DNA from: a virus
Reading direction: 5' to 3' (one strand)
DNA: 33,509 nucleotides
IMG/VR virus record: IMGVR_UViG_3300025759_015067
Span: 1 to 33,509 of that record
The notes below the pieces were generated by a model that was given only the letters and a program-made list of their open reading frames with translations, was not told the DNA's origin and searched no databases. Below are positions 2,110 through 33,509 of this stretch, piece by piece (position 1 is the stretch's first letter; each line of letters starts with the position of its first letter). The position numbers and the translations under genes were made by a program.

Positions 2110-2959
2110 CCAAAACTGGCTGAATCTTCGAGGAATATGCTGTACACAAAACCATATGGTTCTCAAAGTTTGTTGAATATACTGAAAAGCTTGTTGAGAC
2201 ATCTTCTTCTTTATAGCTCTTGACGTGCTTCTTGATCTTGTTCGTCAAAGAGGGATCTTCGTCTAGATCTGCCTCTGGGATGCCGTAAAAGAAGTGAATA
2301 TCTCTTGTCTCTTCAATCGGATACAAAAGCTTAATGTCACTCTCATCTTCATCAAGTGACGAGACGCCGAAAGTGGCAAGCCTTGCAATGTTGTGGGGCT
2401 CTATCTTGTTGGCAAGAATAGGCTCAGTATGATCAAAGAAGTTAATCATCGCTACGACATACGAAATGAAATAGGAAACGCTGTTCTCATATTCCTGAAT
2501 GGGTACGTCACCGACGAGGTTATCAACCGCTTGGCGGTGGACAAGGAAGATCTTTTCAAACACACCGCTCCGAGCGTACTCCTGCAAGACATTAAAAGCG
2601 ATCTTATCATCACGACGCTGGATCTCTGAGCACATCACTCTGTCGGGAACAATATAAAGAACATTTAGCTTGGAGTCTTTGATTGTTTCCAGTATTTTTA
2701 ATGTTGCCCCAGAAACAGGGTCGCCGCCTTCAAGAACTAGAAGGATCTCATCCTTTTTCTTAATGGAGCGCAGGTAAACAGCAACCGAATCCTGATCCAA
2801 CATATGCTCGTAGTCGTCCATCCCTGAGTATTCCCCAATGGAAAGGCTACCACGCTCATCAATCTCTGAATCTATCTTGTATATTCTATATTCTGGGTAT
2901 GCAGTGAGGTGCTCGACAACAGCGCAACCAAGTTTACCTAGTCCAATGACTTTATCCAA
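2099..2959 (-). CDS. Degenerate tubulin/FtsZ-like protein
   Basis: The 286-residue protein follows the FtsZ order in sequence. An N-terminal glycine loop GLGKLGCAV (residues 6-14) corresponds to FtsZ T1. A strand IYKID comes next, then EGGDPVSGAT (77-86) in the place of the GGGTGSGAA loop. NVLYIVPDR and a long helical stretch (110-175) follow, ending FGVSSL, and then a C-terminal domain-like section HFFYGIPEADL...VSTSFSVYS...VLCTAYSS, resembling the FtsZ beta-sheet domain. The nucleotide loop is altered (GGDPVSG) and the catalytic loop NxDxxD is replaced by something like NKIEPHN, so GTP hydrolysis is doubtful. The start is TTG at 2959: an in-frame stop lies just upstream and the first ATG would remove the T1 loop. 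AAGGA stands 8 bases ahead. The start overlaps the polymerase stop by 8 bases, implying coupled translation. The fold is inferred by eye, not proven. Confidence 0.6.
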   Translation of the reverse strand: MDKVIGLGKLGCAVVEHLTAYPEYRIYKIDSEIDERGSLSIGEYSGMDDYEHMLDQDSVAVYLRSIKKKDEILLVLEGGDPVSGATLKILETIKDSKLNVLYIVPDRVMCSEIQRRDDKIAFNVLQEYARSGVFEKIFLVHRQAVDNLVGDVPIQEYENSVSYFISYVVAMINFFDHTEPILANKIEPHNIARLATFGVSSLDEDESDIKLLYPIEETRDIHFFYGIPEADLDEDPSLTNKIKKHVKSYKEEDVSTSFSVYSTNFENHMVLCTAYSSKIQPVLDTI

Positions 2960-4172
2960 TGTGCATATCCTTCATAGAACCCAGAGTTTTACCTCTTTTT
3001 ATGTTTACCTTGAAAGTCCCAAAGTTTGTTGAACTCATAAGGGCTATCAATGGTTTAATTAGGTTCTCATCCTCTTTTTTCATATCAAGAACGACGGCAT
3101 CGTGGATCAAGAAAGCGATGTTCGAACCAGCAGAGCGAGTACGGAGCAAATACTCTAGCTTTAGAGCCTGCTTTAGCGTCAGTTCTGCCGCAGTAGATTG
3201 AACCAAGTAGTTCAGAGCGTGATGCTCGCTTGTATCGGCTATTTGCTTCCTAAATGGCGTTCTAACTGTGTTGCCATCCCAATATTCTTCGAGTAGTCGG
3301 TCCTTTTCGTAGAAACTAGCCAGTTTTTGCATATCTTTCTGACTTACAGCAGTCTTTGACCCATAAAGCCAAGCAAAAAACGCCACTTTTGCGTCATTTC
3401 TGGTGCTGATGTTTGTAAAAACGTTTTCTAAGTGAAAATCGTGGACATCTTCTTCTGGTTGTGGCTTGCCGAGGAGTCCCAACAGCGTTCTGACCTCTGC
3501 TCCGTTGAAATCTAGCTCAATGAAGTAATCATTCTGAGGCAGAATCGCTGATCGGAAGTCTTTATTGAGCGTCAAGATGGGAAATGATCCCTTCTTGGTT
3601 GTGAGTCTGCCTGTTTTTGTCCCGAACTGATTGTAGTCAACGTATGGTTTGTTGTCTAGGATCATCTTTGCTTGATTCTTTAGCTTGGGAGAGGTCATAT
3701 AGGACTTGACAAGCTTTGGATCGATCTTGACCCTTTTTGTTGCGATGTCTCCCAGCATCATAGAGACGTGCTTATAGAACTCATATCGATCAGGCTTTTC
3801 AATGGTCTTCACGATGTGTTCACATATTTTATTTTTTACCTCGCAAAAGTCCACCAAGAACCTTTCGGGAACCAGATCAAAAAAGCAGTTGTCGTAGGTG
3901 TTGACCTGCGAGATAGCCAAGGACCTCTTGAAAGCCTGAATCTTCTTAGAAACGTCTTCCCAGTCATCTTGTAGATACTCTGGGATGTTATCACTAATCT
4001 TGCCACCCTCCAGATACAACGACACATAATCTACATCGATATCACGTAAGTACGGAGCGTACTTCCAAGTCATTGTTAGATCGTCTGGGAACTGCTCTAA
4101 GTCAAACAGTAGCTGATTATGTGTATAGATTCCTACGCACTCGGTTTTGTCGTCTAGTGTTTGGAAGATCAT
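2952..4172 (-). CDS. Family A DNA polymerase, polymerase domain only
   Basis: This 406-residue protein carries the palm and finger motifs of DNA polymerase I-type enzymes: TGRLTT (187-192), motif A ELDFNGAEVR with catalytic Asp221, motif B with the spacing R-x3-K-x3-F-x3-YG (258-271), the NYLVQSTAAEL helix, and motif C LIHDAVV with catalytic Asp358. Motif C has HDA where family members have HDE, and motif A has FNGAEVR in place of YSQIELR. The roughly 180 N-terminal residues show no DEDD proofreading signature, so exonuclease activity is absent or encoded elsewhere. T4 itself uses a family B enzyme; the T4-like Rhodothermus phage RM378 is recalled to carry a split family A enzyme. I chose the ATG at 4172, with AGAGG just ahead, over a TTG seven codons earlier. 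It overlaps the upstream gene by 56 bases. Confidence 0.9.
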   Translation of the reverse strand: MIFQTLDDKTECVGIYTHNQLLFDLEQFPDDLTMTWKYAPYLRDIDVDYVSLYLEGGKISDNIPEYLQDDWEDVSKKIQAFKRSLAISQVNTYDNCFFDLVPERFLVDFCEVKNKICEHIVKTIEKPDRYEFYKHVSMMLGDIATKRVKIDPKLVKSYMTSPKLKNQAKMILDNKPYVDYNQFGTKTGRLTTKKGSFPILTLNKDFRSAILPQNDYFIELDFNGAEVRTLLGLLGKPQPEEDVHDFHLENVFTNISTRNDAKVAFFAWLYGSKTAVSQKDMQKLASFYEKDRLLEEYWDGNTVRTPFRKQIADTSEHHALNYLVQSTAAELTLKQALKLEYLLRTRSAGSNIAFLIHDAVVLDMKKEDENLIKPLIALMSSTNFGTFKVNIKRGKTLGSMKDMHIG

Positions 4173-5634
4173 CTGTTTCCTCTTCAGCGCCAATTATATC
4201 CCCGACTGTTCTCAATGTTAAAGGGTCGGTATCATAGGGTCCAATATATTCTTCCTGTGCGTATCGGAGCGATCTCATATATTGATTTTCTGTGCTTAGG
4301 TTGTAGATGTTCATCATCTGTTGAATCTCTCTTCTTCTTATCCTTGATGTTCGCTCAGGGTCACGCTCTGTTAGCCTAGAGAGATAAAATGTTTTTAGTT
4401 TCCAGCGATCACCGAATCTAGCCACAAACTCTTCTTCGGTTATCTGCTCTCTGGTCATAACTTCTGTCTTGGGAACACAATCAACCAAAGTGTATTCGTC
4501 ACGCATAGAGACGGTTGGTGCCGTAGCGACATAGGTGTTGTAGAATCCTAAAATATAAGTCTCAAGCAGATCAACGTCTGTCTTCCAGGTTTCATCATAG
4601 GCTGTTTCAAACAAAATCTCAAACACCTCTTCCTGAGAGGATGCATCCTTGGCTGGCTGATATTCTTGATATCCAGGCTGGATGTTACCTTCGCTGTCAA
4701 AGTGAGTAGAGATACGGCGCTTAACAGTTTCCAACCCTGGGACCTGAGAATAGCCGAAAGCCATAGGAGCCAACTCTTTATCCAAGAGTGTGGGATCACA
4801 AGGAAGAGGATCAGGATAAGAATCCTCAAACCCTTCAATGGGGACGCCATACATATATTCTTGCATAGCTTGGCTTCTTAGGTCTGCTACGAGTCTCCAA
4901 GGAATGTTCCTATCAATAGAAAAACCATACTGCGCTACGATGTTAGATACAAGCTCAAAGTTTTGATCCAAGTATTCATAAGACTTTGTAAGATCTTCAG
5001 AGTATTTGTCATTGGATATCTCAATCATCAATCCAGACATTAATGGAGAGACACTGACACCTTCGATGTAACCGCTCAAAGTAGTGGGTCCCACTAGGGA
5101 AACAGCAACATCTATGTACTCATCAAACACTGATAGGAAGTTGTCTATGTTTTTTATTCTTCTCTCTTTGTTCCCTGTAATCAAGAACTGTTCAACAAAG
5201 AATCGATATACAGTTTCTCTCATATACTCATCATATTGAACTGTTATTGGATTCCAAGCCTTTACAATAGTAGGTTCCGCCCAGGGACTGTTTCTGTAGA
5301 TTATGTTTTGATCGGCTAGCTCTCTCAACCTTGTGGATAGATCGTACCAAGCGTCTGCCACGAAGTTCATAGCAAACTGGCTCTGATTATCTGCAAAGTA
5401 TAATGACTTTAGAAATCTCTGGTCGGGAATGACTGTATTGCCCTTTGTGTTTACAATGCCATAAAACCTGTCAGCAGACCAAGTGCTGGTCGAGTTCACA
5501 ATCAAACCTTCGGGAAATATAAAGCGGCGATAAAGATCTCTCTCAATAAAAATCTGTGAAGAGTTTAGCTCGTTCGAACCATAAGAGTAAAGCTCTGGAT
5601 TGTTTACGGGAGAGGGTCTAAGTTGGTCTGCCAT
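4117..5634 (-). CDS. Large unidentified protein at the end of the baseplate gene run
   Basis: I do not recognise this 505-residue protein. It is rich in Tyr, Asp, Glu and Arg, lacks signal peptides or membrane segments, and has a charged C-terminus rich in Arg (RRQNRVRRNLYT). Long segments such as the 60-150 region are aromatic-rich, as in baseplate and neck structural proteins. Its start overlaps the stop of the hub-like gene by a TAATG junction, so translation is coupled to tail genes, while its 3' end overlaps the DNA polymerase start. The context makes a virion, probably baseplate-associated, protein most likely, but no motif proves it. Confidence 0.7.
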   Translation of the reverse strand: MADQLRPSPVNNPELYSYGSNELNSSQIFIERDLYRRFIFPEGLIVNSTSTWSADRFYGIVNTKGNTVIPDQRFLKSLYFADNQSQFAMNFVADAWYDLSTRLRELADQNIIYRNSPWAEPTIVKAWNPITVQYDEYMRETVYRFFVEQFLITGNKERRIKNIDNFLSVFDEYIDVAVSLVGPTTLSGYIEGVSVSPLMSGLMIEISNDKYSEDLTKSYEYLDQNFELVSNIVAQYGFSIDRNIPWRLVADLRSQAMQEYMYGVPIEGFEDSYPDPLPCDPTLLDKELAPMAFGYSQVPGLETVKRRISTHFDSEGNIQPGYQEYQPAKDASSQEEVFEILFETAYDETWKTDVDLLETYILGFYNTYVATAPTVSMRDEYTLVDCVPKTEVMTREQITEEEFVARFGDRWKLKTFYLSRLTERDPERTSRIRRREIQQMMNIYNLSTENQYMRSLRYAQEEYIGPYDTDPLTLRTVGDIIGAEEETDDLPNTRRQNRVRRNLYT

Positions 5635-8384
5635 TAGTTCCTTCTCCTATTTGCCTCTGCCAGAGATCCAATGTTTATCTTCCCGCTGTTGGTTCGATGC
5701 TGGAATACCGCATCCACGGTCGTTGTGAAACCTCTATTAGATATCTGGTTTGATGACCTAACAACTCTGTAATATCCCCCAAGAGCCAAAACTTCATTAG
5801 CAAACTCCCCTAGGGCTGCTCGACTATCAATATAGATTAGGTCGCCATTTTTATGTATTGCGTTCCCAAACATCTCAAGAGAAACATTCTGAGGAAGTAT
5901 GAGTGCTTGAGCAAAGTTGGCAGCGTTTGGTCCGCTGTATATTGCCTCGATGTTCAAAGCCTTAAACTGTGGCACATCCTGTTTGGAGAAGTTAAAGTTT
6001 TTGACAATGCCTCGATCAGCACCTAAGGTGTAATGTTTTATCCCACGCTTTTCATCGTAAGCCCTATCGCCACTGTACTTCTCGTTAGTTTGTCGAACAA
6101 AAAGAATATAATAGCTATTGATCTTTCTGTTGTCAGTTAGTACTTTATTTTTAAAGTTACCCTTGAGATTAGCCGATAGTCCGTTTAGAGTATCCCTTGT
6201 TATCAAAAGTGTACTGTCCCTGACTACAGTTGCCTTTCCTTCGCTGAGAGCCTTCTCTCCCTCGGTCCTGATTAGGGTATCAGTCATATAGACTGTGTAA
6301 TCAAAACTTATTCTGAACTTGAAAGAGGTAAGATTGTTCAAAAGCCTGGACACCGCTGAAATAAGAGTGTCTAGGAACTGACGGAATGGGTACTCATCAA
6401 TTTCCCTAGAGATAATATTATCGTATACAAACTGAGCCAGGTAGTCAAGTGCAATTGGGATGTCATATATTGGAAAGTTGCTATCATCTTTTTCAAAGCC
6501 TGGAATGCCCAGTTTCTTGGGGCAATAAGTTCCAAGCAAAAATTTGATGTCATCTCTCATATCTGCGTTCTGCATTGCTGCCAAGATTATATCCCCAAGG
6601 AACACAAAAGGTATTTTTATGTACTTTTCTTCCTCGGTCTTATCTTCAGACTCAATACTTCCGCCACGCTTGAAAGTGTACTCAGACGATATCTTATTAC
6701 TCTCTAGGAATTCTTTACGTTCATCTTCAGAGAGTTCTGCCAGTTTTTTAAGGTTGTCTGCTGCCTTTCGGGCAGCATCGGCTCTCGATGATCCAACTAT
6801 TGGTGGCTTGAGATCAAAAATAATATCTCCCCCAGAGGACCTTGCAGCAGTGCCCATATAGACCCTACTAGCATTACCTGTTCCACCAATCAAATTGTTT
6901 ATGAGAGATGCATATCGAGAAGATCGCAAACCACGCTGCGCTCTTTTATAGACAGTCTCAACCAAATTCATCTGTTCATCTATGACCTCTAGTTGTTTAG
7001 TCACTGCGGTTTTTGGTCTTGACCCTTCACTTTTTAGTTTTAGATATTCCCTAACACCTGAAAGGTATTGGTGCTCTCTATTTAACCTATCCAGGCGGAC
7101 AGGTACTATCTCCAGACCTTTTGGGATAAAATTATCAAGCTGAAATTTTAGGTACCCCTCTTTGAGAAGTGCGCTCTTCTTTATGTCATCTATTGACACC
7201 ATCACTTGTTGGCTGTTTAGGTTCCCTTTGGAAAAGTTATTTTGTCCCAACACATCAGATTGTGGCGATCCCAAGTAACTATCAGTTGAGCCGACGTACT
7301 CAAGCTTCAAAGTAACTGGACCCTCTTGTGAGAAGTTAACATCGTAGTTTACTAGGTTCAGCAAAATAACTCTTTGAGTTGCCTCTACGGCAGCTAGAAA
7401 ACTGTCTCTTCTTTTTGTTCCCCCGTAAAGTCTAGCAAGAGCCCCTGGGTCGCCCTGTGGCTTAGCCCACCCAACTACTACCTTTAGTTGCCTAAAGTCA
7501 TTGCTCACCTTGTCGTCAACTTCGATCTTTGATCCTGGCAAAAGTGACTTGAGGAGCTTTTCGTTCTCAACCTTTAGTTCATTGAGTCTATCTTCTTTGC
7601 TGTACCGACCTTTATTTTTATTGATCTTCGGAGCAATCGCTGACTTTCTTCCATTCGTGAACAAAAAGGACAAATAGTTCAGGTTTATAAGCTCAGACAA
7701 TGTTCCAAAATAAAGCTCTAGATCAGCGTTGATAATCTTATCACCTTCGTGCTTGTTGTGGTATTTCCAGTTAAAAGACTTTATACCAGCCTCTGAGCCT
7801 CCCCTGGTCAATGTTTCGCTTACAGTCTTTGCTGCTCTGGCATTTGCAAGTTTTACGATTCTATCGACTCTGGTAAAGTCACTGAAGTATACCTCTTCCT
7901 GGACCTGTCTGCCTGTCTTTTCAAAAACTTTAACTTTCTTAGTTTTGCCGTTTTCATCTTTAATGCTCTTGGTGCCGACGAGCTTCTCTTCGGGAGAGAC
8001 AATGAAGAATCTTAAAGTAGGTTCCAGTGAAGCTAACTCTGCTGGGGTTGCATCGTGAAATGGCTTCATATCTGTTGGGTCGGTCAATAATGAAACAATA
8101 TCTTCTGGAGGCATTCCTGCACAAGGTAGAATATATTTGTTTCTCTGTAAGGATTCTGTATTCCTTGAAGAGTCAAGAGTTTGGTTTCTGGTCTGCTGCC
8201 CAATGGGAGATACCGATGTGTGGATTGGGCGCATATTTTGCAAAAGTATCTCTTGCTTGGTTAGAGTTATAGCCTTAGCTTTTGACTCTTCGACTCTGCG
8301 TTGACGACGGAGTTCGTCACGGCGAGCTTCTTCTTCTGCACTGATAGGTCCTTCAAAACCTGGATCGATATCACCCCAAACCAT
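5634..8384 (-). CDS. Large baseplate hub-like structural protein
   Basis: This is a 916-residue protein with a highly charged N-terminus (residues 12-40, Glu/Arg/Lys-rich, probably helical) and mostly beta-like remaining sequence. The C-terminal part, from about residue 830, contains NAIHKNGDLIYID, GGYYRVVRSSNQI and RGFTTTVDAVFQHR, which resembles the end of hub proteins of the gp27/late-control type, where a GYY-V...GF-T pattern is common. It lies between the gp53-like wedge gene and the unidentified 505-residue gene, with TAATG overlaps on both sides. Hub proteins form the centre of the baseplate, linking tube, spike and wedges. The assignment rests on context and this C-terminal pattern. 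At 916 residues it is much longer than T4 gp27 and may fuse several modules. Confidence 0.55.
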   Translation of the reverse strand: MVWGDIDPGFEGPISAEEEARRDELRRQRRVEESKAKAITLTKQEILLQNMRPIHTSVSPIGQQTRNQTLDSSRNTESLQRNKYILPCAGMPPEDIVSLLTDPTDMKPFHDATPAELASLEPTLRFFIVSPEEKLVGTKSIKDENGKTKKVKVFEKTGRQVQEEVYFSDFTRVDRIVKLANARAAKTVSETLTRGGSEAGIKSFNWKYHNKHEGDKIINADLELYFGTLSELINLNYLSFLFTNGRKSAIAPKINKNKGRYSKEDRLNELKVENEKLLKSLLPGSKIEVDDKVSNDFRQLKVVVGWAKPQGDPGALARLYGGTKRRDSFLAAVEATQRVILLNLVNYDVNFSQEGPVTLKLEYVGSTDSYLGSPQSDVLGQNNFSKGNLNSQQVMVSIDDIKKSALLKEGYLKFQLDNFIPKGLEIVPVRLDRLNREHQYLSGVREYLKLKSEGSRPKTAVTKQLEVIDEQMNLVETVYKRAQRGLRSSRYASLINNLIGGTGNASRVYMGTAARSSGGDIIFDLKPPIVGSSRADAARKAADNLKKLAELSEDERKEFLESNKISSEYTFKRGGSIESEDKTEEEKYIKIPFVFLGDIILAAMQNADMRDDIKFLLGTYCPKKLGIPGFEKDDSNFPIYDIPIALDYLAQFVYDNIISREIDEYPFRQFLDTLISAVSRLLNNLTSFKFRISFDYTVYMTDTLIRTEGEKALSEGKATVVRDSTLLITRDTLNGLSANLKGNFKNKVLTDNRKINSYYILFVRQTNEKYSGDRAYDEKRGIKHYTLGADRGIVKNFNFSKQDVPQFKALNIEAIYSGPNAANFAQALILPQNVSLEMFGNAIHKNGDLIYIDSRAALGEFANEVLALGGYYRVVRSSNQISNRGFTTTVDAVFQHRTNSGKINIGSLAEANRRRN

Positions 8385-19557: not shown

Positions 19558-21315
19558 TTAGGAATCAGCAACGTCTCTTACTAGATCCTTGCAGATGACC
19601 AAACCGTACATGTCAGGACGTACCATCTTCTTGGCATAGCGTGTCATGACGCCCTTGCGAGGTACGAAGTCCTCGATACCAAAGATGGTGGGTGTGACTT
19701 GTAGTGGTACGTATGGAGCGTACACATAGCCGCTTTCTAGGAAGCTGCTACCACGGCGACCGACGAGAACGACGGAGCGTGGGAAGTAAGGATCGACGTG
19801 AATGTCCATCTTACGGCTGATAGAACCAACGTTTTGAGCGCCCCAGGAGCCGGCTGTGTCGCTGTCTACTGCTGTAGAAGCACGGAAGCCGCTGGTGAAC
19901 TCAAGGATGGAAGCTACTTCTGGACCACAGACCAAGAAGTTAGCACCACCACGTAGTGTCTTACGGTGAATACGAGCACTTACGTCGTTGACTGTCTCAA
20001 GTAGAGTTTCGTACCATTCGGAAACTGTACCTGTGAAGTCTGGGTAGTTTGTGCCGTTAGCAAGAACGCCGCTTTCACGATCTACGAACTTGCCTGGGCT
20101 GCGTGACCAGTACAATGTACCAGCAGTAGCGCCTTGGACGAGATCGTTGAGGATTTCACGGTCGATTTCAAGAGCGATCTGCTCAGAAAGAATGCTTGTC
20201 AACTCAACTTCAGCGTCGAGGTTGTGATAAGCGTTCAAGTCTTGAGCTAGTTCTGGGGACCACTTAGCCTTGAGCTTCTTGGTGATAGCTGTGACAGCAA
20301 CGGAGTCAACCTTGATGTCGATCTCGTTGAGTTCGTCTTGAGCTTCTAGAGGCCAGCCCTGTGAGCCATTGCCACCAACTACGCCACCGAGAGCGGAAGC
20401 TGGGTCGAATTCGTCTCTCACTGGGTAAACAGCGTCAGCGTTACCAGCTAGAACAGCGTTACCGCCGGCTAAGAAGATTACTAGTTGCATATCACCATCA
20501 GCGTTGAGGTGAGTCAAACGACGGACGCCACGACCACTAGTAGAGGTGTTATCGATATCAAAAGCGATCATGTTATCGAAATCAAAACCTGGCAATGATG
20601 TACCAACGTTTGTTGCTGAGATCTCGTAAAAACGAACAGTTGCTGTAGCGTCGTCTTGAAGAGCAGCAATGATGTCTGGATCGTTCTTGAGGCGAACGTT
20701 CAAAACGTCAGCGGTTTGTGCGTCTGTCAAAGCCAAGATGTTAGCCAATGTCAAGTGAGTGTTCAAAGGTGCTGGAAGAGCATCAACGATAGCATTGATG
20801 TCAAGAGAACGTGATGCCTGAGCAAAACCTTGATTTAGAGCATAGAAGCTTTTTTCTGGGGCATTAGCAGCAGTAGCTGTGCTACCCAAGTCAACACCAC
20901 CAGTCAACTGGCTACCGACAACGCCACCACCGTATAGTGATTCACCGTCTACAGCGCCACCTAGAGCAGGCTGGTTGATTGCTTCGTATGTGAAGTCAAG
21001 GAAGAAAATGAGACCTGATGGAAGGCTCATTGGTTGGACGGATACAAGATCCTGTGCCAATAGGTTGCCGAATACACGACGAACGATTGGGAATGCAACT
21101 GCGGAGAAGCCTTCGACGTCACCAGCAGCCATTGTGCTGGATTCTTTTAGAAGCTGGGCAGCTTGGTTTTCTAGAAGACGAGCCATGTTACTACGTGTAA
21201 CATCGCCAAGACCTTCAAGAAGACCAGTCTTTTCCCACTTCCCGAGAAGTGCTTCACCCTCATTGGCTAAGGAACGAGCCTTAATGCCTTCTGTGAGTGT
21301 TTCTAGTACTGACAT
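19558..21315 (-). CDS. Major capsid protein (gp23-like)
   Basis: The 585-residue protein has a gp23-type architecture: a charged helical N-terminus (first about 65 residues, probably the part removed by the prohead protease), then FPIVRRVFGNLLAQDLVSVQPMSLPSG, the strongly conserved opening of the mature capsid domain. It ends with VYAPYVPLQVTPTIFGIEDFVPRKGVMTRYAKKMVRPDMYG, also characteristic of gp23. T4 gp23 is 521 residues, so the middle Gly/Asn-rich surface region is somewhat expanded. It builds the hexamers of the head; no separate gp24 vertex protein is visible. The ATG at 21315 has AAGGAG. The gene follows the scaffold gene by 29 bases and ends in a strong terminator. Confidence 0.93.
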   Translation of the reverse strand: MSVLETLTEGIKARSLANEGEALLGKWEKTGLLEGLGDVTRSNMARLLENQAAQLLKESSTMAAGDVEGFSAVAFPIVRRVFGNLLAQDLVSVQPMSLPSGLIFFLDFTYEAINQPALGGAVDGESLYGGGVVGSQLTGGVDLGSTATAANAPEKSFYALNQGFAQASRSLDINAIVDALPAPLNTHLTLANILALTDAQTADVLNVRLKNDPDIIAALQDDATATVRFYEISATNVGTSLPGFDFDNMIAFDIDNTSTSGRGVRRLTHLNADGDMQLVIFLAGGNAVLAGNADAVYPVRDEFDPASALGGVVGGNGSQGWPLEAQDELNEIDIKVDSVAVTAITKKLKAKWSPELAQDLNAYHNLDAEVELTSILSEQIALEIDREILNDLVQGATAGTLYWSRSPGKFVDRESGVLANGTNYPDFTGTVSEWYETLLETVNDVSARIHRKTLRGGANFLVCGPEVASILEFTSGFRASTAVDSDTAGSWGAQNVGSISRKMDIHVDPYFPRSVVLVGRRGSSFLESGYVYAPYVPLQVTPTIFGIEDFVPRKGVMTRYAKKMVRPDMYGLVICKDLVRDVADS

Positions 21316-25820: not shown

Positions 25821-26634
25821 CAGATTGGTACTCGTCTACTAGCTTCTGTAACTTTAAGATCTTGAGGATGTCTTCCTGTTGTAGGTTAGAGACATTTATA
25901 TTTTCTATTTCTTCCAAAACTTTCTGAGTAGCTTTGACCATTTCCTTGTCTTGCTTTACCTCTTCTAGTTCAACGGACTTTTCGATCTCTTCTTTGATGC
26001 GTCGTAGTTCTGTGCCGACGTGAATGCGGAAGTCTACTTCGTTTGATCCGAAAGAGACAACATACTTTCCTAGAAGTTCTTTCTGCTCCTTGAGCAATCC
26101 AGTATACTGGCTGTTAAAGCGCTCAGCAAACTTCTTGACCACCAAGGAGTCCACTGGCTGCATCTCTTCTTTCTCTTCTTTGATTGTTGTCATCTCTTCG
26201 ACAACTGTCTGCTCCATCAACACACGGCTCTTGATTGTGCCTTTTGTTCCGAAGACCTGGGCGATGGTTGCGAAGGATCTATAGTTTGGAACAAAGTTGT
26301 TATATACAGAGCGACCAAGATGAGTGTTGATCTTCTTGATGACTTTAGATTGTTCGGAGAAGATTTCCTGGGAGTCTAGCTCGTTGTATGACTCTTTAGC
26401 TACGGACAAAATCTTTTCGGCAGTCTCTTTGTCAAGTCCCTGCTCAGCAACGATAGAGTTGTAACACTCTACTTCTTTGTTGAGGGTCTTCCCTTTGGAG
26501 AAGTGTTCTGCTAGGATGCCTTTGGCAATCTTAGTTCTTTCGTTATCTCTTTTGACAACTGACTTTGTTACTTCTCTTACAAGAGCTTCAAACAAAAATG
26601 CTGTGTTTCTTTTCTTGTTATGCTTGACCTTCAT
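25810..26634 (-). CDS. Charged helical protein next to portal, possible prohead core component
   Basis: The 274-residue protein is almost entirely helical and charged, with a basic N-terminus (MKVKHNKKRNTAFLFEALVREV) and Glu/Lys-rich coiled-coil-like stretches from about residue 140 to 270. No enzyme motif is visible. It overlaps the end of the portal gene by 17 bases and the next gene by 11 bases, so it is part of the head operon. T4 has its small core proteins gp67 and gp68 in this interval, and a scaffold-related job is a fair inference; the sequence itself does not prove it. Confidence 0.62.
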   Translation of the reverse strand: MKVKHNKKRNTAFLFEALVREVTKSVVKRDNERTKIAKGILAEHFSKGKTLNKEVECYNSIVAEQGLDKETAEKILSVAKESYNELDSQEIFSEQSKVIKKINTHLGRSVYNNFVPNYRSFATIAQVFGTKGTIKSRVLMEQTVVEEMTTIKEEKEEMQPVDSLVVKKFAERFNSQYTGLLKEQKELLGKYVVSFGSNEVDFRIHVGTELRRIKEEIEKSVELEEVKQDKEMVKATQKVLEEIENINVSNLQQEDILKILKLQKLVDEYQSDDN

Positions 26635-28513
26635 CTTTTGTCCCTAATTGTTCTATCAGTCTGTCGATCTCATATTGGTTACTAAACAATATTTGTTCTT
26701 CTCTATCAACAGATTCTCTAGTTCTTATAACACCATTCCCTAAAGAGCTAATTGGTCTAGCAAGATTATTCATCTCACTTTGCGCAATAGTAAATAGTCT
26801 TCTTTTGTTCTTAGTTCCTGGCTTAGCTGATTCGCCACCAGCAGCAGCAAGGTCTGCTCTTTTTCTAGCTCCACGTTTTTGGCGTCCACGAGGCTTGCCA
26901 TCATCACGTTGCCCTGGTTCTGGCTCTGCCAAAAGTGGTCCTTCTTCTGCTGGTTCTTCTGGCGTTTCTTCTGCTGGTGTTTCGCCACCAAGACCTAAGT
27001 CAAGGTCGTCACCACCTGCACCGCCTTCTGTTTCTGGGATTGTACCAGCCTCTTCAATAGCAGCGCCGAACTGAGCGTCACCATACATTTCGATCTGGAT
27101 TCTGTCGATCTCTTCGTTGTCAAGCTTGAAGATGTTTTTGTATACCCAGTGCTTGGAGAAGTAGCCATCTGTTGCTGCGCCTGCAATGTCGAACTTAGTG
27201 CGGAGGTGCTCAAGCTCTTGAAGCTCAGCAATCTTGGATGGGTTGTTAAGAGTAATGCTGAAAGATGTCAAGTCGGAGTCTCTGTACCCAAGGGTGTAGA
27301 GGTGAATGATAGCCATCTTTTCTAGCTCAGCAATAACAGTTCTCTGAAGTCTTTGAATAGTTCTTGCAAAGCGAATGTCTTTTTGTGATAGAGTTGTCTT
27401 GTCTTCGATAGCGTCAGATTGTGCCAAGTAAGCCTTTGGAATCTTAAGCGCTGAGAAGAGTTTGTCTCTCAAGTAGTTAACGTCGTCAATGTCGCCTGTA
27501 AACTGTCCACCAGCCAAGGTTTCGATTCTTGTGTTACTGGCAGCACCACGAATAGGAATGTAGTAGTCCTCATCGACGCTCATTGCATTGTAGCGCAAGT
27601 CAACACGACCGCTGTCTTCGTCAACAATCTGGTTGCGCTTCATTTGTGTCTTGACTTGCTCGATGTAACCTTCAACATCTTCTGGAGAAATGTTACCAAC
27701 GTCAATGTAGAATACTCGTCGCTCAGGAGAGCGGACAATACGATAAGCCATCATAGCATCTTCGAGCAGAGTTAGCTGACGCCAGATACGGCGTGATGGC
27801 TCAAGCACTGAGGTTCCGTTTGGAACGTACTTGTCATTACCAATAACTCTGAAGTGGCATACCTGCCAGTTCTCAAAGGTTACACCCTTATTGCCTTCAG
27901 CACCTGTCCAGAAGTATTGGATGTAATTTGGATTTGTTTTATCTGTTCCCTCGATTCGCTCGATCTCACGAACTGGGAGCGGGATCACGTTTGTGATGCC
28001 CAAGCTATCGTCGATGTCCAAATAGAGATAATAGTCACCGTACTTGCACATACCTCGTGACCAGCCGAAAAGGTTTGCCTCGATATTCAAAACGGTGAAC
28101 ATCAAGGTGTTGATGATCTCTTTGATCTCACGGTTAGCACAATCAATCGAAATGATTGGATTAAGAGCAGTTGATGTTGTTATCTCATCAGCGTAAATGT
28201 CGAGAGTAGAAGCAATCTCTGGCATATACTCCATCTGGTCGAAGTCAGTATACCTGATCTGCTTATTTCTTGCATTGAGAACTTGGTTGCTAAGGTTCCC
28301 AAAAGGATTGTGATATTCTTTCTTCTTAAACTCACGACCAGTGCCAGTAGTAAAAGTGTACTTTGTGACATCTCTTCTACTAGAACGACTGAATGATGGT
28401 CGATCGTAGTTTACGATTGGACCACTGAAAAGTCGAGTGAGTCTCTTGAAAAGAGGTGACTGCCTGTTGCGTGGGTTGTTTCCGTCATTATTTGAGTTAT
28501 AATCGTCTGCCAT
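26618..28513 (-). CDS. Portal protein (gp20-like)
   Basis: The 631-residue protein is the dodecameric portal through which DNA is packaged and ejected. Diagnostic parts are YTDFDQMEYMPEIASTLDIYADEITT (about residues 87-112), GDYYLYLDIDDSLGITNVIPLP, RAPERRVFYID-like text at RSPERRVFYIDVGN, and PKAYLAQSDAIEDKTTLSQKDIRFARTIQRLQRT, the conserved wing/stem section of gp20. T4 gp20 is 524 residues. The added length is mainly a C-terminal linker (about 505-580) rich in Glu, Pro, Gly and Arg, followed by a short helix. It lies directly after the large terminase gene (3 bases apart) and overlaps the following gene. Confidence 0.92.
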   Translation of the reverse strand: MADDYNSNNDGNNPRNRQSPLFKRLTRLFSGPIVNYDRPSFSRSSRRDVTKYTFTTGTGREFKKKEYHNPFGNLSNQVLNARNKQIRYTDFDQMEYMPEIASTLDIYADEITTSTALNPIISIDCANREIKEIINTLMFTVLNIEANLFGWSRGMCKYGDYYLYLDIDDSLGITNVIPLPVREIERIEGTDKTNPNYIQYFWTGAEGNKGVTFENWQVCHFRVIGNDKYVPNGTSVLEPSRRIWRQLTLLEDAMMAYRIVRSPERRVFYIDVGNISPEDVEGYIEQVKTQMKRNQIVDEDSGRVDLRYNAMSVDEDYYIPIRGAASNTRIETLAGGQFTGDIDDVNYLRDKLFSALKIPKAYLAQSDAIEDKTTLSQKDIRFARTIQRLQRTVIAELEKMAIIHLYTLGYRDSDLTSFSITLNNPSKIAELQELEHLRTKFDIAGAATDGYFSKHWVYKNIFKLDNEEIDRIQIEMYGDAQFGAAIEEAGTIPETEGGAGGDDLDLGLGGETPAEETPEEPAEEGPLLAEPEPGQRDDGKPRGRQKRGARKRADLAAAGGESAKPGTKNKRRLFTIAQSEMNNLARPISSLGNGVIRTRESVDREEQILFSNQYEIDRLIEQLGTKDEGQA

Positions 28514-28516
28514 TTT

Positions 28517-30088
28517 TTATCCCTTTATAATCCATCCTAAGTCGTGCATTCTTCCGTCTGTTCCTCTAAACTTTGAAGGCTGTGATTGATATCCGTGTTG
28601 CCCTTGTATCTTTGTGTTTAGAACTTTGTTACTTTTTGATATGCTGCTTAGTAAGGCTTTTTTGTAGGTCTCCTCCCGCTTATTTGCAGTCAGTGCTGTT
28701 CCTCTAACCCAGCAACCAATAGAAGCAGCTATAACAAGATCATCATTATAACTTCTCATTGCTTGTGGTCTTCCATTGTGCCACACAAATGTTTTGATTT
28801 CATTTGCAAGGCGCATGGAATTAATGGTAATTAGTTTATTTCTAACGAATTCCTCAAACTTCGCAATAACAAGTGGTCGAGTTTTCATAGACATAGTGAA
28901 CCCAGGTACGCCACCAACTGCCTCTGCGGTAACTTCATCAACATATTCATGAGTAGATTTTATACTATAATACAGATTTTTATAGTCTAAGTCCTGAAGT
29001 CTATTCAAAACTCCAATACCCAATGAGTTGTTCTCGATCACAAGCAGCGCATTGTTGTACTCTCCAGCTATTGAATACAATAAAGGAGCAAACATATCTG
29101 GAGTTACTTTACCTTGGTATTCAGCAACCTGTTCCATACTGTGAGTATCAAAAACGTGCGCTACACTAAAGTCTGATCCGTCTCCTCTAGCAACGTCAGC
29201 TACTAGAACATATTCGTGCCCTTCTCTTGGCTCTTTCCAGATCCAGTAGTTTCTATCAAAGCCAGTTCTTCTTTCTGGTTCTCTTACATTTTCTAAGATT
29301 ACTTTTAAGTCGTCCCCGTGAACTACGGTTTCACCTGAAGCATTGAAGTTGCACTCAAGCTCCTGTGCGATTTCACGCCGTGACATATTCCTGGTCTCTT
29401 TGTCAAACCATTCTTGATCACGCTCTGGGTGTACATCCCAAGGAAGACAGATAGTATGGAAGTCGTTCTTACCTTCTTCTGCCTCTGTATATGTTTTGTG
29501 GAACCAGTTACCAACACCGTTGGGTGTTGACAGGGCAATGCAGCGACCACCAGTTGATAGGGTAGGGTAAAGACCAGCCCACAACTCTTCCATACCATCG
29601 ACGAAAGCAGCTTCGTCAACAACGAGCAGTGACAAGGCTTCCGAACGACCAGCGTCGCCAGAAGTAGATGAAGCTTTTACTTGTGAGCCATTAGATAACT
29701 CAAAAGAGGTTCGGTTGTCAATAGAAATGTTTGCAATCTTCAACCAGCTTGGTAAATTTTTGTGGATTGCTTTTATCTTCTTGACTAAGTTAGTTGCAGT
29801 CTGTAGCTTTGTGGCGACGATAAGAACATTCTTATCTCGATGAAAAAGCATCATCCAGCAAACATATGCGGCGACACTAGTAGAGATACCTAGCTGTCGA
29901 GCCTTTAAGATAACACTGAATCGGTTATCTTTGAAATCCCTTAGAGCGTCTTCCTGAAACTCGTACATATCAAAAGGGATGAGCCCTTTGAGTGGGTGCG
30001 AGATCTTTGCGTGCTGATTACAAAAGTAGACTGGGTCTTTCCCACAGCGGACAATCTCCGCCATTATCTCCTTTTTGTTGGATGGCAT
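28517..30088 (-). CDS. Terminase large subunit (gp17-like)
   Basis: The 523-residue protein is the packaging motor ATPase/nuclease. A Walker A-type loop KARQLGISTS is at 62-71, and a Walker B strand LLVVDEAAF is near 154-162. A coupling motif ALSTPNGVGNWF follows. The nuclease domain has VLVADVARGDGSDFSVAHV, VIENNSLGIGVL and YNDDLVIAASIG, giving the acidic metal site. T4 gp17 is 610 residues. The ATG at 30088 overlaps the previous stop (TAATG). A second ATG eight codons later has a better AAGGAG and may be the true start. Gene order is terminase then portal, without sheath and tube between them as in T4. Confidence 0.93.
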   Translation of the reverse strand: MPSNKKEIMAEIVRCGKDPVYFCNQHAKISHPLKGLIPFDMYEFQEDALRDFKDNRFSVILKARQLGISTSVAAYVCWMMLFHRDKNVLIVATKLQTATNLVKKIKAIHKNLPSWLKIANISIDNRTSFELSNGSQVKASSTSGDAGRSEALSLLVVDEAAFVDGMEELWAGLYPTLSTGGRCIALSTPNGVGNWFHKTYTEAEEGKNDFHTICLPWDVHPERDQEWFDKETRNMSRREIAQELECNFNASGETVVHGDDLKVILENVREPERRTGFDRNYWIWKEPREGHEYVLVADVARGDGSDFSVAHVFDTHSMEQVAEYQGKVTPDMFAPLLYSIAGEYNNALLVIENNSLGIGVLNRLQDLDYKNLYYSIKSTHEYVDEVTAEAVGGVPGFTMSMKTRPLVIAKFEEFVRNKLITINSMRLANEIKTFVWHNGRPQAMRSYNDDLVIAASIGCWVRGTALTANKREETYKKALLSSISKSNKVLNTKIQGQHGYQSQPSKFRGTDGRMHDLGWIIKG

Positions 30089-30639
30089 TATGCCTCCGGC
30101 GTTTCAGGATTCTTGGGCGCTGTGTCGTTTGATGGACGCTTCTCGGAAGCTAGTTCAAGAAAATCACGAAACTTTTGCTCGTGTGGGCGATCATCTGGCT
30201 GACCAGATGGGCGACGAACAGCCACTACACCGTCAAGCTGACCGATGCTGTATTGCTTAGAAGCCTGAACCCAAGAGCGAACTCTAGAAGTGCTTTGGAC
30301 CATCATATCAGCAGGAGCTACTTCTGTAAGGGTTACGCTTTCATTTGTAATGTTTTTATATTCTTTCTTGAGAAACTTTACAATGTCAACAAACTTTCTT
30401 TCTATTTCGTTTTCAAACTGATTTCTGGGGTGAAGTTCCTGAAGAGCTACTTCGCCCTGATATGATACGATCATCTTGTCAGCAGAAAAACGAACACGAA
30501 AGCCGTCCATTACACGACTGTCAAGGATTGGATCACCTTCTTCTCTGTTCAAACCAATATCTTCAGATAGTTCTGCACCATCATAAGCATTAGAGGCTGC
30601 CTGGTTCAAACCTTTGATTACATCTAAGACTGTTGCCAT
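30088..30639 (-). CDS. Unknown protein in the small-terminase position
   Basis: The 183-residue protein starts MATVLDVIKGLNQAASNAYDG, has a beta-like middle (SRVMDGFRVRFSADKMIVSYQGEVAL) and a helical section FENEIERKFVDIVKFLKKEYKN, then a disordered, Pro-rich end. I chose the ATG at 30639, with AAGGAG about 9 bases ahead, over a TTG seven codons upstream that lies within that very site. It overlaps the large terminase start by TAATG. Small terminase subunits usually precede the large one, but no clear DNA-binding helix-turn-helix or ring-forming pattern is evident, so a gp16 role is suggested by position only. Confidence 0.65.
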   Translation of the reverse strand: MATVLDVIKGLNQAASNAYDGAELSEDIGLNREEGDPILDSRVMDGFRVRFSADKMIVSYQGEVALQELHPRNQFENEIERKFVDIVKFLKKEYKNITNESVTLTEVAPADMMVQSTSRVRSWVQASKQYSIGQLDGVVAVRRPSGQPDDRPHEQKFRDFLELASEKRPSNDTAPKNPETPEA

Positions 30640-31055
30640 TTCTTTCTTCTCCTTAAGCAAGTTTGCAAATGCTCGTCATCGGGTCTCCACCCCTCGTTCC
30701 ATCGCCCTGTTCTATCTTCAACAAAGTCAATGTAACATTTATAACAGCATTCAAACCTATTCATATATAGGTCGTCCTTCTGTGAAAATGAATATGTTTT
30801 ACAGACTGGGCAAGTTCTGTCTGCCGCTTTGTCTTTGACTGGCTTTCTTATCTGTACAGATCCATCTTCTATAGTAGTATATTTTTTATTTCTTGTTCCC
30901 TTGAGAGCAGAGCGTTCTTTTAGCTGCTTGAGGTAATCTTTCTCTTTGTCTTCTTCCCATTCATTGCGGAAGTCCTGCACTGTATTCTTGCCGTACTTTT
31001 CGGCGATTGCACGCTCTACCGCAGCAAGGTAGTTTGGATCTTTCTTGCTTTTCAT
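30624..31055 (-). CDS. Zinc-ribbon protein of unknown function
   Basis: The 143-residue protein has a highly charged helical N-terminal half (rich in Lys/Glu/Arg) and a C-terminal zinc-ribbon-like part: CPVC at about 82-85, then CCYKC near 103-107. The aromatic/acidic stretch YIDFVEDRTGRWNEGWRPDDEHL follows. The four spaced cysteines are likely to hold one zinc ion. I cannot name its partner. It overlaps the upstream secreted-protein gene by ATGA and the downstream gene by 16 bases, joining the tubulin-like operon to the packaging genes. DNA- or RNA-binding regulation is possible. Confidence 0.68.
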   Translation of the reverse strand: MKSKKDPNYLAAVERAIAEKYGKNTVQDFRNEWEEDKEKDYLKQLKERSALKGTRNKKYTTIEDGSVQIRKPVKDKAADRTCPVCKTYSFSQKDDLYMNRFECCYKCYIDFVEDRTGRWNEGWRPDDEHLQTCLRRRKKWQQS

Positions 31056-31435
31056 TGTGATGGTTGTACCGCCTTAACAATTGCTATAGAAGTCCCTACT
31101 CCAATAACAAGACCAGATAAAAGACCCAAAGCACCCTTGTTCCTTCTGAACCAAGTGTTGTCTTTATGGATTGTTTCCTGAAGACTTTTGATGGATAGTT
31201 TGTACTGCTCTTGGAGTTGAGTGCAAACCTTTTTATCCACATCGCACTCTGCAACTTTTGCATTGGTGTCGATCTTGTCTTGTAGGAGTTTGCGGAAGTC
31301 TTCTTCGCTTAATAGAATGCCGACATAGGTGTCGCTGCCTTCCTCAACTGCTGCTGGGCGAGGTTTGAACTCAGTGACCTCGCCAGCAGTAGCATTGAGG
31401 GAAAACAATAATAATGTTATAACCAGTAATCTCAT
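31052..31435 (-). CDS. Secreted protein with C-terminal membrane anchor (spanin-like topology)
   Basis: The 127-residue protein begins with a signal peptide (MRLLVITLLLFSLNATA, likely cut after Ala17; no lipobox Cys). A soluble part follows with two cysteines (64 and 71) that could form a disulfide, and a helical stretch VCTQLQEQYKLSIKSLQETIH. A membrane segment is at about 101-122 (GALGLLSGLVIGVGTSIAIV), and a short tail ends the protein. That gives a periplasmic protein tethered to the inner membrane. The topology resembles unimolecular spanins in part, but those carry a lipoprotein signal. The start codon follows the stop of the tubulin-like GTPase after one base, so they are co-translated; it may equally be a partner of that GTPase. 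Confidence 0.62.
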   Translation of the reverse strand: MRLLVITLLLFSLNATAGEVTEFKPRPAAVEEGSDTYVGILLSEEDFRKLLQDKIDTNAKVAECDVDKKVCTQLQEQYKLSIKSLQETIHKDNTWFRRNKGALGLLSGLVIGVGTSIAIVKAVQPSQ

Positions 31436-31436
31436 T

Positions 31437-32573
31437 TTACTTCTTTAGGAATTTCTTTAGTCCTTCGATGCGCTTGGCAGGACGCTTAAGCCCACTGACC
31501 AAAGTGTAAGTTACGAGCTTATCTTTCTTGTCGTCCTCGTAGATACCACGGTGAACCATAGCACCACCAGTCAAGGCAGCCAAAGTATCAAAGCCAAACT
31601 CAATGTTGTCCATCAAGCCGACAGTCTCTTCAAAGATTTCTTCGCTACCAACAACAATACAAGCAGCACCTGTAGCAGTTGTTAGGTCGAAACCTTCAGC
31701 GAGAAGTGTCTTCTCTAGGTTCTTCTTAAGAGCACTTGAGACAGCAGTTTCATTCTCAAGGTTCTTGACGCTGGTTACACCCATAATCATACAGCCGGGC
31801 TGCTTCATAATACTGTCGTAGTCTGTAGCATCAAAGGTTGTGTATTCTGAGTCTTGGTTTGCTAGAACGTTAAAGACGTGGAACAAGCCAGCGACTGTGT
31901 TGTTGATTGTGGTCCAGAACTTCTTGACTGTAAGTTTTGGATATAGTTTTTTGATCTTCTCGTTGTCCACCATAATGAGTGGAGCGATCTTTCCTTTTTC
32001 TGCGAGCCCGCAAAGTTGGGTAATGCGAGTGTGAGCGTTCTTGGCTACGGTTGGGGAAGCAGACTCGCCAGCAGTTGGAAGGGAAGCAATAACACCAACA
32101 CGCTCATCAACGTTCTCAACGCCGATGTAGGTGAAGTACTTCTTGGCTACCTTGATGAGGGTATTGACTGTGCCGCCACCTGAACCGCCAGATACACCGA
32201 GGCAGATCAAAATGCGATCAACGTTGCTGCCGAATACTTCACGGAACTTGTTGAACACTTCTTGCTCTTTGCGCTCGATGGCTGCTTCGGCTTTGGCTTG
32301 ATCTTTACCAGCACCCTGCTCGCCGTGCTCGTCAACCAAGAACTTTTGGTTCTCTGGAATGTCTAGACCGTTAAGGTCAGAGCGGGCTGTATTCACAGCA
32401 ACGGTTTTTGTGTAGCCCATATCGTAAAAGGCTTTAGCCATACGACCACCGCCTTGACCTGCGCCAACAATAGCATAAGTTAGGGCACCACCCGACTTAT
32501 CTTCAACCGTTTCCTGTTCCTCGTTGAGGTCTGGATCGTAATCTTCAATGTCTAGTGTAGGGATATCTACCAT
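31437..32573 (-). CDS. FtsZ/tubulin-like GTPase
   Basis: The 378-residue protein is a tubulin-superfamily GTPase. After an acidic 30-residue extension comes VGAGQGGGR (36-44, FtsZ T1), then TVAVNTARSDLNGL (57-70), matching the FtsZ NTDxxxL strand. The G-box LGVSGGSGGGTV is at 125-136 (compare GGGTGSG). The catalytic T7 loop TFDATDYDSIM (247-257) keeps both Asp of NxDxxD, and IMGVTSV follows, as in the FtsZ strand S7. The end is basic (KRIEGLKKFLKK). Such proteins polymerise with GTP; phage relatives (PhuZ, TubZ) move or centre DNA and capsids. AAGGAG lies ahead of the ATG at 32573. It sits between two membrane-protein genes, which could be its anchors. Confidence 0.85.
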   Translation of the reverse strand: MVDIPTLDIEDYDPDLNEEQETVEDKSGGALTYAIVGAGQGGGRMAKAFYDMGYTKTVAVNTARSDLNGLDIPENQKFLVDEHGEQGAGKDQAKAEAAIERKEQEVFNKFREVFGSNVDRILICLGVSGGSGGGTVNTLIKVAKKYFTYIGVENVDERVGVIASLPTAGESASPTVAKNAHTRITQLCGLAEKGKIAPLIMVDNEKIKKLYPKLTVKKFWTTINNTVAGLFHVFNVLANQDSEYTTFDATDYDSIMKQPGCMIMGVTSVKNLENETAVSSALKKNLEKTLLAEGFDLTTATGAACIVVGSEEIFEETVGLMDNIEFGFDTLAALTGGAMVHRGIYEDDKKDKLVTYTLVSGLKRPAKRIEGLKKFLKK

Positions 32574-32586
32574 TTTACTAGTCTCC

Positions 32587-32901
32587 TTATAAATCTAGTT
32601 CTTCGTGTAATCTTATTAGAGCTTTCAATCTTTCTTCACGGTCTTGTATTTCTTTTGTTTCCTCAAGTTTTTGATCGTAAATCTTTTTGATTGCTCCGAT
32701 TTTGTCCTTTTCAAGTTTAGCACGGATTTGATTTTCTTTTATAGCAGTGTTGATTTTTGCTTGCACACCCTCAAGATACTGGGTCTTGTTCTTTGTTGGG
32801 CGAACAATGTTATAAACAAACCAGGCTAGTCCGAGAACCATAACAACCAAGAAAGCCAGTGACCAAGCACTGCTTTTTACTTTGTACCAAAGTGCTTTCA
32901 C
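32587..32901 (-). CDS. Single-pass membrane protein with coiled coil (ZipA- or i-spanin-like topology)
   Basis: The 104-residue protein has one N-terminal membrane helix (about residues 12-33, AWSLAFLVVMVLGLAWFVY) followed by a charged coiled coil from about 45 to 102. This shape fits an inner-membrane spanin (Rz-type) or a membrane anchor such as ZipA or a bitopic filament adaptor. The start is GTG at 32901, overlapping the holin-like stop (GTGA). The tubulin-like GTPase follows 13 bases later. No sequence motif decides between lysis and cytoskeletal roles; the holin-like neighbour favours lysis and the GTPase neighbour the alternative. Confidence 0.6.
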   Translation of the reverse strand: MKALWYKVKSSAWSLAFLVVMVLGLAWFVYNIVRPTKNKTQYLEGVQAKINTAIKENQIRAKLEKDKIGAIKKIYDQKLEETKEIQDREERLKALIRLHEELDL

Positions 32902-33089
32902 TTACCGTGTCTCCAAGTTGCAGCGATATCAGCAGCCCCTTGTAATCCGATATAAGCTAGTGATACAGCAACCCAGTCGCTACTAGTCAAAGAACCAGAT
33001 GCTAAAAAACCTGTGGCTGTGCCCCAAACAATAAGTTTGCGAGATGCCCATTTACCTAATGCTTTGTCGATTCTTTCTTGCATTGTCAT
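32898..33089 (-). CDS. Holin-like small membrane protein
   Basis: The 63-residue protein has a polar N-terminus (MTMQERIDKALGKWASRK), a hydrophobic segment around 19-34 (LIVWGTATGFLASG), a short loop and a second one around 38-55 (DWVAVSLAYIGLQGAADI), then a basic end (TWRHGK). This is the layout of class II holins and other small phage membrane proteins. I chose the ATG at 33089 because GGAGG lies 4 bases ahead; a second ATG two codons later has 10 bases of spacing. A longer frame upstream is rejected. It overlaps the coiled-coil membrane gene by GTGA. No endolysin gene is seen in the window. Confidence 0.6.
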   Translation of the reverse strand: MTMQERIDKALGKWASRKLIVWGTATGFLASGSLTSSDWVAVSLAYIGLQGAADIAATWRHGK

Positions 33090-33111
33090 TGGACCTCCTA
33101 AGATGTTATAA

Positions 33112-33315
33112 TTAGTTCTTCTGTTTCCTTTTAGCTCGTTTGTGCAACTGTATGTCTTCGCCACGGACTCTGTATGATTCTCCGCCAAACAATACCGTAC
33201 CCATCTTAGTCCAAGTACTGTACTCAAGCAATAGACCAACTTGCCAGTCAGTGTAACGCTTTGGCTTGATATGCCAAGTGCACTGCCTAAACCTTACAAG
33301 ATCCCCTGCTCTCAC
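33112..33315 (-). CDS. Small beta-rich protein, relative of its upstream neighbour
   Basis: The 67-residue protein begins MRAGDLVRFR and has WQVGLLLEYS, MGTVLFGGESYRVRGEDIQL and a strongly basic tail (KRAKRKQKN). The GDLV...GLL-EY...V.....DI pattern also occurs in the next gene upstream, suggesting a duplicated SH3/KOW-like barrel. The start is GTG at 33315, overlapping the neighbour's stop (GTGA), so the two are translationally coupled. The function is unknown. Confidence 0.6.
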   Translation of the reverse strand: MRAGDLVRFRQCTWHIKPKRYTDWQVGLLLEYSTWTKMGTVLFGGESYRVRGEDIQLHKRAKRKQKN

Positions 33316-33509
33316 GCCCTAGAGACCACCACTAAATCTCTTTCGTGAACTTCATACATTGCAGCAAGGCCGTGAGTCAAGTCCCAATCTGTTGTAGTCC
33401 AACTAACATTCCAATAACCTGGAGTTGGATACTCCCCTATAACAAGCCCATATGGACCTGACCCTGATTTTAAGAAGATATTGCTTTGTACTAAATCGCC
33501 TACTTTCAT
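33312..33509 (-). CDS. Small beta-rich protein at the window edge
   Basis: The 65-residue frame starts exactly at the right end with ATG, and the MKVGDLVQ opening looks like a genuine start, but the ribosome binding site lies outside the window. Its GDLV, GLVIGEY and VHERDLVVVS segments parallel the next gene. This suggests a small SH3/KOW-like barrel of unknown function, common in phage accessory regions. Confidence 0.6.
   Translation of the reverse strand: MKVGDLVQSNIFLKSGSGPYGLVIGEYPTPGYWNVSWTTTDWDLTHGLAAMYEVHERDLVVVSRA

Follow-up and report, generated by a model that had tools for sequence, protein, structure and literature searches.

A tubulin-superfamily GTPase upstream of the terminase gene in far-T4 phages, with relatives on planctomycete chromosomes

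What could a tubulin-like GTPase be doing among the head and packaging genes of a T4-like phage? Detailed knowledge of phage cytoskeletons comes from two cases, the PhuZ of jumbo phages that form a nucleus and the TubZ of plasmid-like phages, and these are also the phage tubulins of the literature searched. The window analysed here, the whole of a 33,509 nucleotide stretch of the virus record IMGVR_UViG_3300025759_015067 (IMG/VR), encodes a third candidate of 378 residues, referred to here as TUB. An earlier note made from the sequence alone had described this gene as a full-length FtsZ/tubulin-like GTPase. The limits that it gave (31437-32573) are exact, and the strand, which it left unsaid, is minus. 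The features considered in the analysis are collected in Table 1.

Sequence, active-site loops and predicted fold

The reading frame of TUB starts with an ATG behind a good Shine-Dalgarno sequence (AAGGAG...ATG) and is open over all 378 codons. The Pfam families PF00091 (E 4.5e-9) and PF22453, TubZ-like_C (E 4.7e-7), have been assigned above their curated cut-offs. The best sequence match in the PDB is TubZ of Bacillus cereus (4ei7), at 8.6e-12 with the single sequence and 2.3e-21 with the family profile. The matches of TUB to the tubulin superfamily are far beyond chance.

An AlphaFold2 model, for which 43 natural relatives were aligned (alignment A5), has a pLDDT of 90.5 and a pTM of 0.88, and shows the GTPase domain and C-terminal domain of the superfamily. 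Comparison of this model by Foldseek and VIA-align places TubZ as the best structural match (Z 37.7, rmsd 2.5 A over 333 residues), followed by CetZ2 (Z 36.6, a fold comparison only) and FtsZ (Z about 31). The best match among viral models is A0A6J5RW92 of the BFVD, a protein of an uncultured Caudovirales phage referred to as 'FtsZ Cell division GTPase' (TM 0.85), and models of PhuZ match weakly (TM about 0.55). The PDB-structure matches listed for TUB include no PhuZ entry, which is compatible with some similarity to PhuZ. The tubulin fold that had been claimed before, and whose absence would have spoken against the claim, is borne out by the prediction, and TUB is almost certainly a tubulin-fold GTPase.

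All the motifs quoted in the earlier note (VGAGQGGGR, NTARSDL, SGGSGGGT and the T7 loop DATDYD with both aspartates) are present in TUB. The GTP-binding loops include the GGxGxG G-box, and the T7 loop has the aspartate pair (xDxxD) characteristic of the superfamily. Besides the residues in Table 1, N61 and T62 of T2, G87-K90 of T3, and P166, T167, G169 and E170 of T5 are invariant among the 43 relatives. In FtsZ and tubulin the T7 aspartates work on the GTP of the adjacent subunit; since they are invariant in TUB, we infer head-to-tail polymerisation, in which the aspartates of one subunit would very probably complete the GTP site of the next. Judged from these residues, an active, polymerising GTPase is strongly indicated as the likely state of the protein.

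A motif at the N-terminus, P-x-[LI]-x-[LIM]-E-x-[YF], is common to the phage copies of TUB and to proteins of planctomycetes described below. In the phage copies the N-terminus is short and mostly acidic. The acidic N-terminal extension and basic C-terminal end ascribed to the protein have fared differently: the former is confirmed and holds the conserved motif, and the latter is found in the window clade alone, another viral clade ending in ...KLDPYGEE.

Table 1. Features of TUB and of the genes around it (positions in the window)
Feature	Position	Strand	Remarks
TUB, tubulin-superfamily GTPase, 378 aa	31437..32573	-	motifs, Pfam, PDB match, predicted fold
N-terminal motif P-x-[LI]-x-[LIM]-E-x-[YF] (IPTLDIEDYDP), codons 1-17	32523..32573	-	alignment A5 and motif scan
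T1 loop GAGQGGGR region, codons 37-45	32439..32465	-	G37, G39, Q40, G42, G43, R44 invariant in 43 relatives
T4 (G-box) loop GGSGGGT, codons 129-135	32169..32189	-	G129, G130, G132, G134 invariant in 43 relatives
T7 loop FDATDYD, codons 247-253	31815..31835	-	catalytic-type D248 and D251 invariant in 43 relatives
g34, 104 aa, N-terminal TM and charged coil, phrog_1009	32587..32901	-	upstream neighbour, 13 nt gap to TUB
Downstream neighbour, 127 aa, signal-peptide-like start and C-terminal TM-like segment	31052..31435	-	1 nt gap to TUB
Small conserved gene	30624..31055	-	
Conserved gene directly upstream of terL	30088..30660	-	
Large terminase terL (T4 gp17-type)	28517..30088	-	
Portal protein (gp20-type)	26618..28513	-	
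Major capsid protein gp23, far-T4 type	19558..21315	-	

Phage neighbourhood and viral distribution

The phage encodes virion and other T4-type genes of the gp17, gp20, gp21 and gp23 types together with the sheath, UvsX and gp32, and the T4-like packaging and head context proposed earlier is thereby upheld. The gp23 protein finds its best places, by coverage and identity, with Microcystis phage Mel-JY01, Flavobacterium phage immuto and Rhodothermus phage RM378. By these sequence comparisons the phage is a far-T4 relative whose gp23 is nearest to the RM378-type capsid proteins. The cultured far-T4 isolates RM378, immuto 2-6A and Mel-JY01 revealed no homologue of TUB even with the family profile, in agreement with the earlier remark that such a gene has no standard precedent in this setting. 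The T4-like genome also contains a short (413 aa) frame of a family-A-type DNA polymerase (window 2952-4193; phrog_17, phrog_15971).

Upstream of terL the genes are closely packed, and TUB is one of a run in which the gaps measure 13, 1 and -4 nt. Both genes flanking it (32587-32901 and 31052-31435) are small, and their products have charged coils along with segments of TM or signal-like type; both genes evolve fast, and TUB hardly changes. The products could be spanin-like proteins or membrane anchors. Expression of TUB probably coincides with that of the late head and packaging genes, a suggestion that rests on operon position, which alone is no proof; no T4-type late promoter was seen and its motifs are not enriched. 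No tyrosine integrase was found in the 17 viral records searched, namely the window plus 16 further tubulin-bearing records; three of the 17 are 172-190 kb long. This absence fits a lytic life.

Among 80 terminase loci, TUB occurs in all the 54 that have enough upstream DNA, at 1.3-1.5 kb upstream of terL, and is a core gene of its phage clade. With a mean amino acid identity of 92.6% and a dN/dS of 0.026, it is under the strongest purifying selection among the 10 genes compared (terL 79.5% identity, portal 73.0%, protease 84.7%, the rest 51-65%). At least 174 IMG/VR stretches encode members of the family. That a host gene was misassembled into, or contaminates, a viral contig would be suggested by the metagenomic source and by nothing more; it is refuted by the gene order, which dozens of independent contigs share, some of them longer than 170 kb, and has practically no probability left.

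Other viral clades encode relatives that are 67-69% and about 51-53% identical to TUB; there the position and the neighbours of the gene differ, and the gene is therefore kept though its neighbours change. The gp23 gene has been confirmed in one record (G646/L255) of the about 51-53% group, and the TUB-bearing phage clades are far-T4 wherever the capsid gene can be typed. These clades bear on the idea of a non-polymerising GTPase that serves in packaging or in building the head, perhaps in association with the terminase or in the timing of lysis. The constant distance from terL in the window clade and the small TM proteins alongside would suit such a factor, but in the other clades TUB is not beside terL or these neighbours, and the invariant T7 loop acts only across a subunit interface, which makes this role very improbable.

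Some genes near the tubulin in other viral clades have been recognised by eye. They include genes resembling those of iron-sulphur assembly, which are IscU-like, IscA-like and ferredoxin-like in one contig (L187:4812-5769) and IscA-like and ferredoxin-like in another (L256:4429-4683, 7550-7903), and, in two viral clades, genes of cytidylyltransferase/RfaE-like nucleotidyltransferases (L251:6099-6539 and L308:9033-9488).

Planctomycete relatives and the host

A pattern scan of 84,980 species genomes, its matches confirmed by tblastn, has identified cellular relatives of TUB in eight genomes of Phycisphaerae/Planctomycetota alone, at 48-50% identity; divergent relatives in other phyla would escape the patterns, and the limit of the cellular family to planctomycetes is therefore provisional. 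A first scan of genome contigs with a narrow alignment had given nothing, and the eight loci were obtained with a broader one. All the cellular relatives with a named record come from metagenome-assembled genomes. The two neighbourhoods that were read are ordinary chromosome with metabolic and housekeeping genes. The relatives belong to one order of Phycisphaerae, and their occurrence is patchy: 4 of 392 genomes in the phylum have one, and the figures are 23 of 118 in the order and 8 of 198 in the class. No match to canonical FtsZ above the cut-off is found in the eight genomes, and the lack of FtsZ in planctomycetes is known (PMC5147048).

Most planctomycete copies have N-terminal tails of 65-271 residues with 10-42% lysine, acidic residues making up at most 4% in nearly all, and several of the genomes have tandem or second copies. 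The tails of some, such as L193:7800-9122 and L196:7428-9110, are rich in lysine and alanine and resemble histone H1. The tubulins with lysine-rich tails are possibly DNA-bound cytoskeletal proteins.

In a tree of 81 rows the viral clade is nested among planctomycete sequences. A reduced tree, in which the root is unresolved, has a clean split between viral and planctomycete sequences, and viral monophyly is not rejected (p-AU 0.51). In the trees the two groups together stand well apart from TubZ, FtsZ and phage G. Besides the strand, the earlier note had missed the planctomycete relatives, the N-terminal motif and the separateness of the family from PhuZ and TubZRC.

These relatives raise the alternative that phage TUB copolymerises with, replaces or caps a homologous tubulin of the host and so controls its chromosome segregation or division. 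The Phycisphaerae relatives are 49% identical and share the N-terminal motif, the eight genomes tested have no canonical FtsZ, and the phage form, lacking the lysine-rich tail of most host forms, could bind the polymer and not DNA. The catalytic site of the phage protein is nevertheless fully kept, and the homologue is limited to 23 of 118 genomes in the order and 4 of 392 in the phylum; we consider such control unlikely. The interference with host FtsZ suggested by the earlier note has itself become less likely, the catalytic residues being kept and the sole cellular relatives found being those of planctomycetes without canonical FtsZ.

The hosts of far-T4 phages were unassigned in a survey of 2015 (PMC4360716), and the relatives of TUB point to planctomycetes. 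On these relatives alone a planctomycete host is suggested for the phage. Against it, the relatives of its gp23 infect Bacteroidota and cyanobacteria, and Bacteroidetes hosts have been predicted for a marine far-T4 virus (PMC7198788).

Proposed role and comparison with known tubulins

The best explanation as a whole, to which we give a probability of roughly 0.55, is that TUB forms a late-expressed filament that would position or move the DNA or the capsids of the phage within infected cells. The late-type neighbourhood, the lytic T4-like genome, the intact GTPase and the lack of an adjacent TubR or iterons argue together for a filament of lytic growth, and the differing neighbours of TUB between viral clades stand against it. 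For a positioning or trafficking role as such, taken by itself, the odds appear even. The task would resemble that of PhuZ, performed by another tubulin and with no TubR/tubC partition system.

A filament of TubZ type could instead distribute the phage genome, kept as an episome (pseudolysogeny), between daughter cells. The closest solved sequence and fold are indeed those of plasmid TubZ, and PF22453 passes its cut-off. TubR was not found adjoining TUB: the gene directly upstream, where the plasmids compared have a TubR-like regulator, encodes a TM/coil protein without a DNA-binding match, although a distant TubR is possible. No array of tubC iterons is present in 30000-33509, that is, within 3.5 kb, and no integrase was identified. 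TUB is also placed among head and packaging genes and apart from TubZ in the tree, and the partition of an episome is accordingly rather improbable, slightly more so than control of a host tubulin. In the plasmid of a haloarchaeon, Salinibaculum, an FtsZ-like gene (L315:1105-2799) directly follows a ribbon-helix-helix regulator, which recalls the TubR-TubZ arrangement.

The filament of lytic growth, if true, would be a third, unrelated acquisition of tubulin, in T4-like phages of ordinary size, and tubulin tracks would be a general solution in lytic infection. The broader proposal remains tentative, its chances being somewhat below even: a new tubulin family common to abundant lytic far-T4 phages and FtsZ-less planctomycetes, forming a spindle or track of its own with an origin independent of PhuZ and the phage nucleus, its gene exchanged between phage and planctomycete chromosome, which would be the first indication of a host for this far-T4 lineage. 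The relatives in FtsZ-less bacteria, with mostly lysine-rich tails that might bind DNA, also raise a testable question on chromosome movement or division there.

The literature searched, with most subscription papers outside its scope, gave no paper joining far-T4 phages with tubulin and none on planctomycete phages by name. The fold and chemistry of TUB are known, and its family and setting were not found described in that literature; the deposition of A0A6J5RW92, 26% identical to TUB, indicates that related genes have already been deposited without study.

TUB shares with the superfamily member FtsZ (TIGR00065) the fold and the loops. Its identity with canonical FtsZ was rejected (49.3 bits against a cut-off of 295.2), and BLAST against E. 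coli FtsZ gave no match. Among GenBank phages Bacillus phage G alone matched; its FtsZ-like gp138 is likewise a tubulin homologue of a large phage (profile match 1.2e-27), but is about 20-25% identical to TUB with no N-terminal motif seen. The Phycisphaerae proteins (e.g. L193, L196) are 48-50% identical over the whole core and share the motif P-x-L-x-[LM]-E-x-[YF] and the signatures HRGIYED and TVKxFW; they differ in being cellular, in their mostly lysine/alanine-rich N-tails and in often occurring as tandem paralogues.

Plasmid TubZ (Bacillus thuringiensis 2xka, B. cereus 4ei7) resembles TUB over the full length in fold (Z 37), GTPase loops and TubZ-like C-terminal domain, whereas the identity is about 20-22%, the N-terminal motif is another one, the tree branch is separate, and TUB, not plasmid TubZ, sits in a phage packaging region. 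A search of plasmids gave nothing but distant TubZ-like genes (identity at most 32%), and membership of TUB in the plasmid TubZ group was rejected on its separate clade and the long branches between. The family is a distinct one on the TubZ side of the superfamily, common to several phage clades and some Phycisphaerae chromosomes. PhuZ of the nucleus-forming jumbo phages is similarly a phage-encoded tubulin with a possible positioning role, but its host phages are phiKZ-like and the virion genes of the TUB phage are of T4 type. TUB was rejected as a PhuZ by sequence (phrog_4733 E 0.074, hhalign probability 2.6%), and phiKZ had no match to the family profile. TUB has the look of a phage cytoskeletal filament that differs from both types studied in phages so far.
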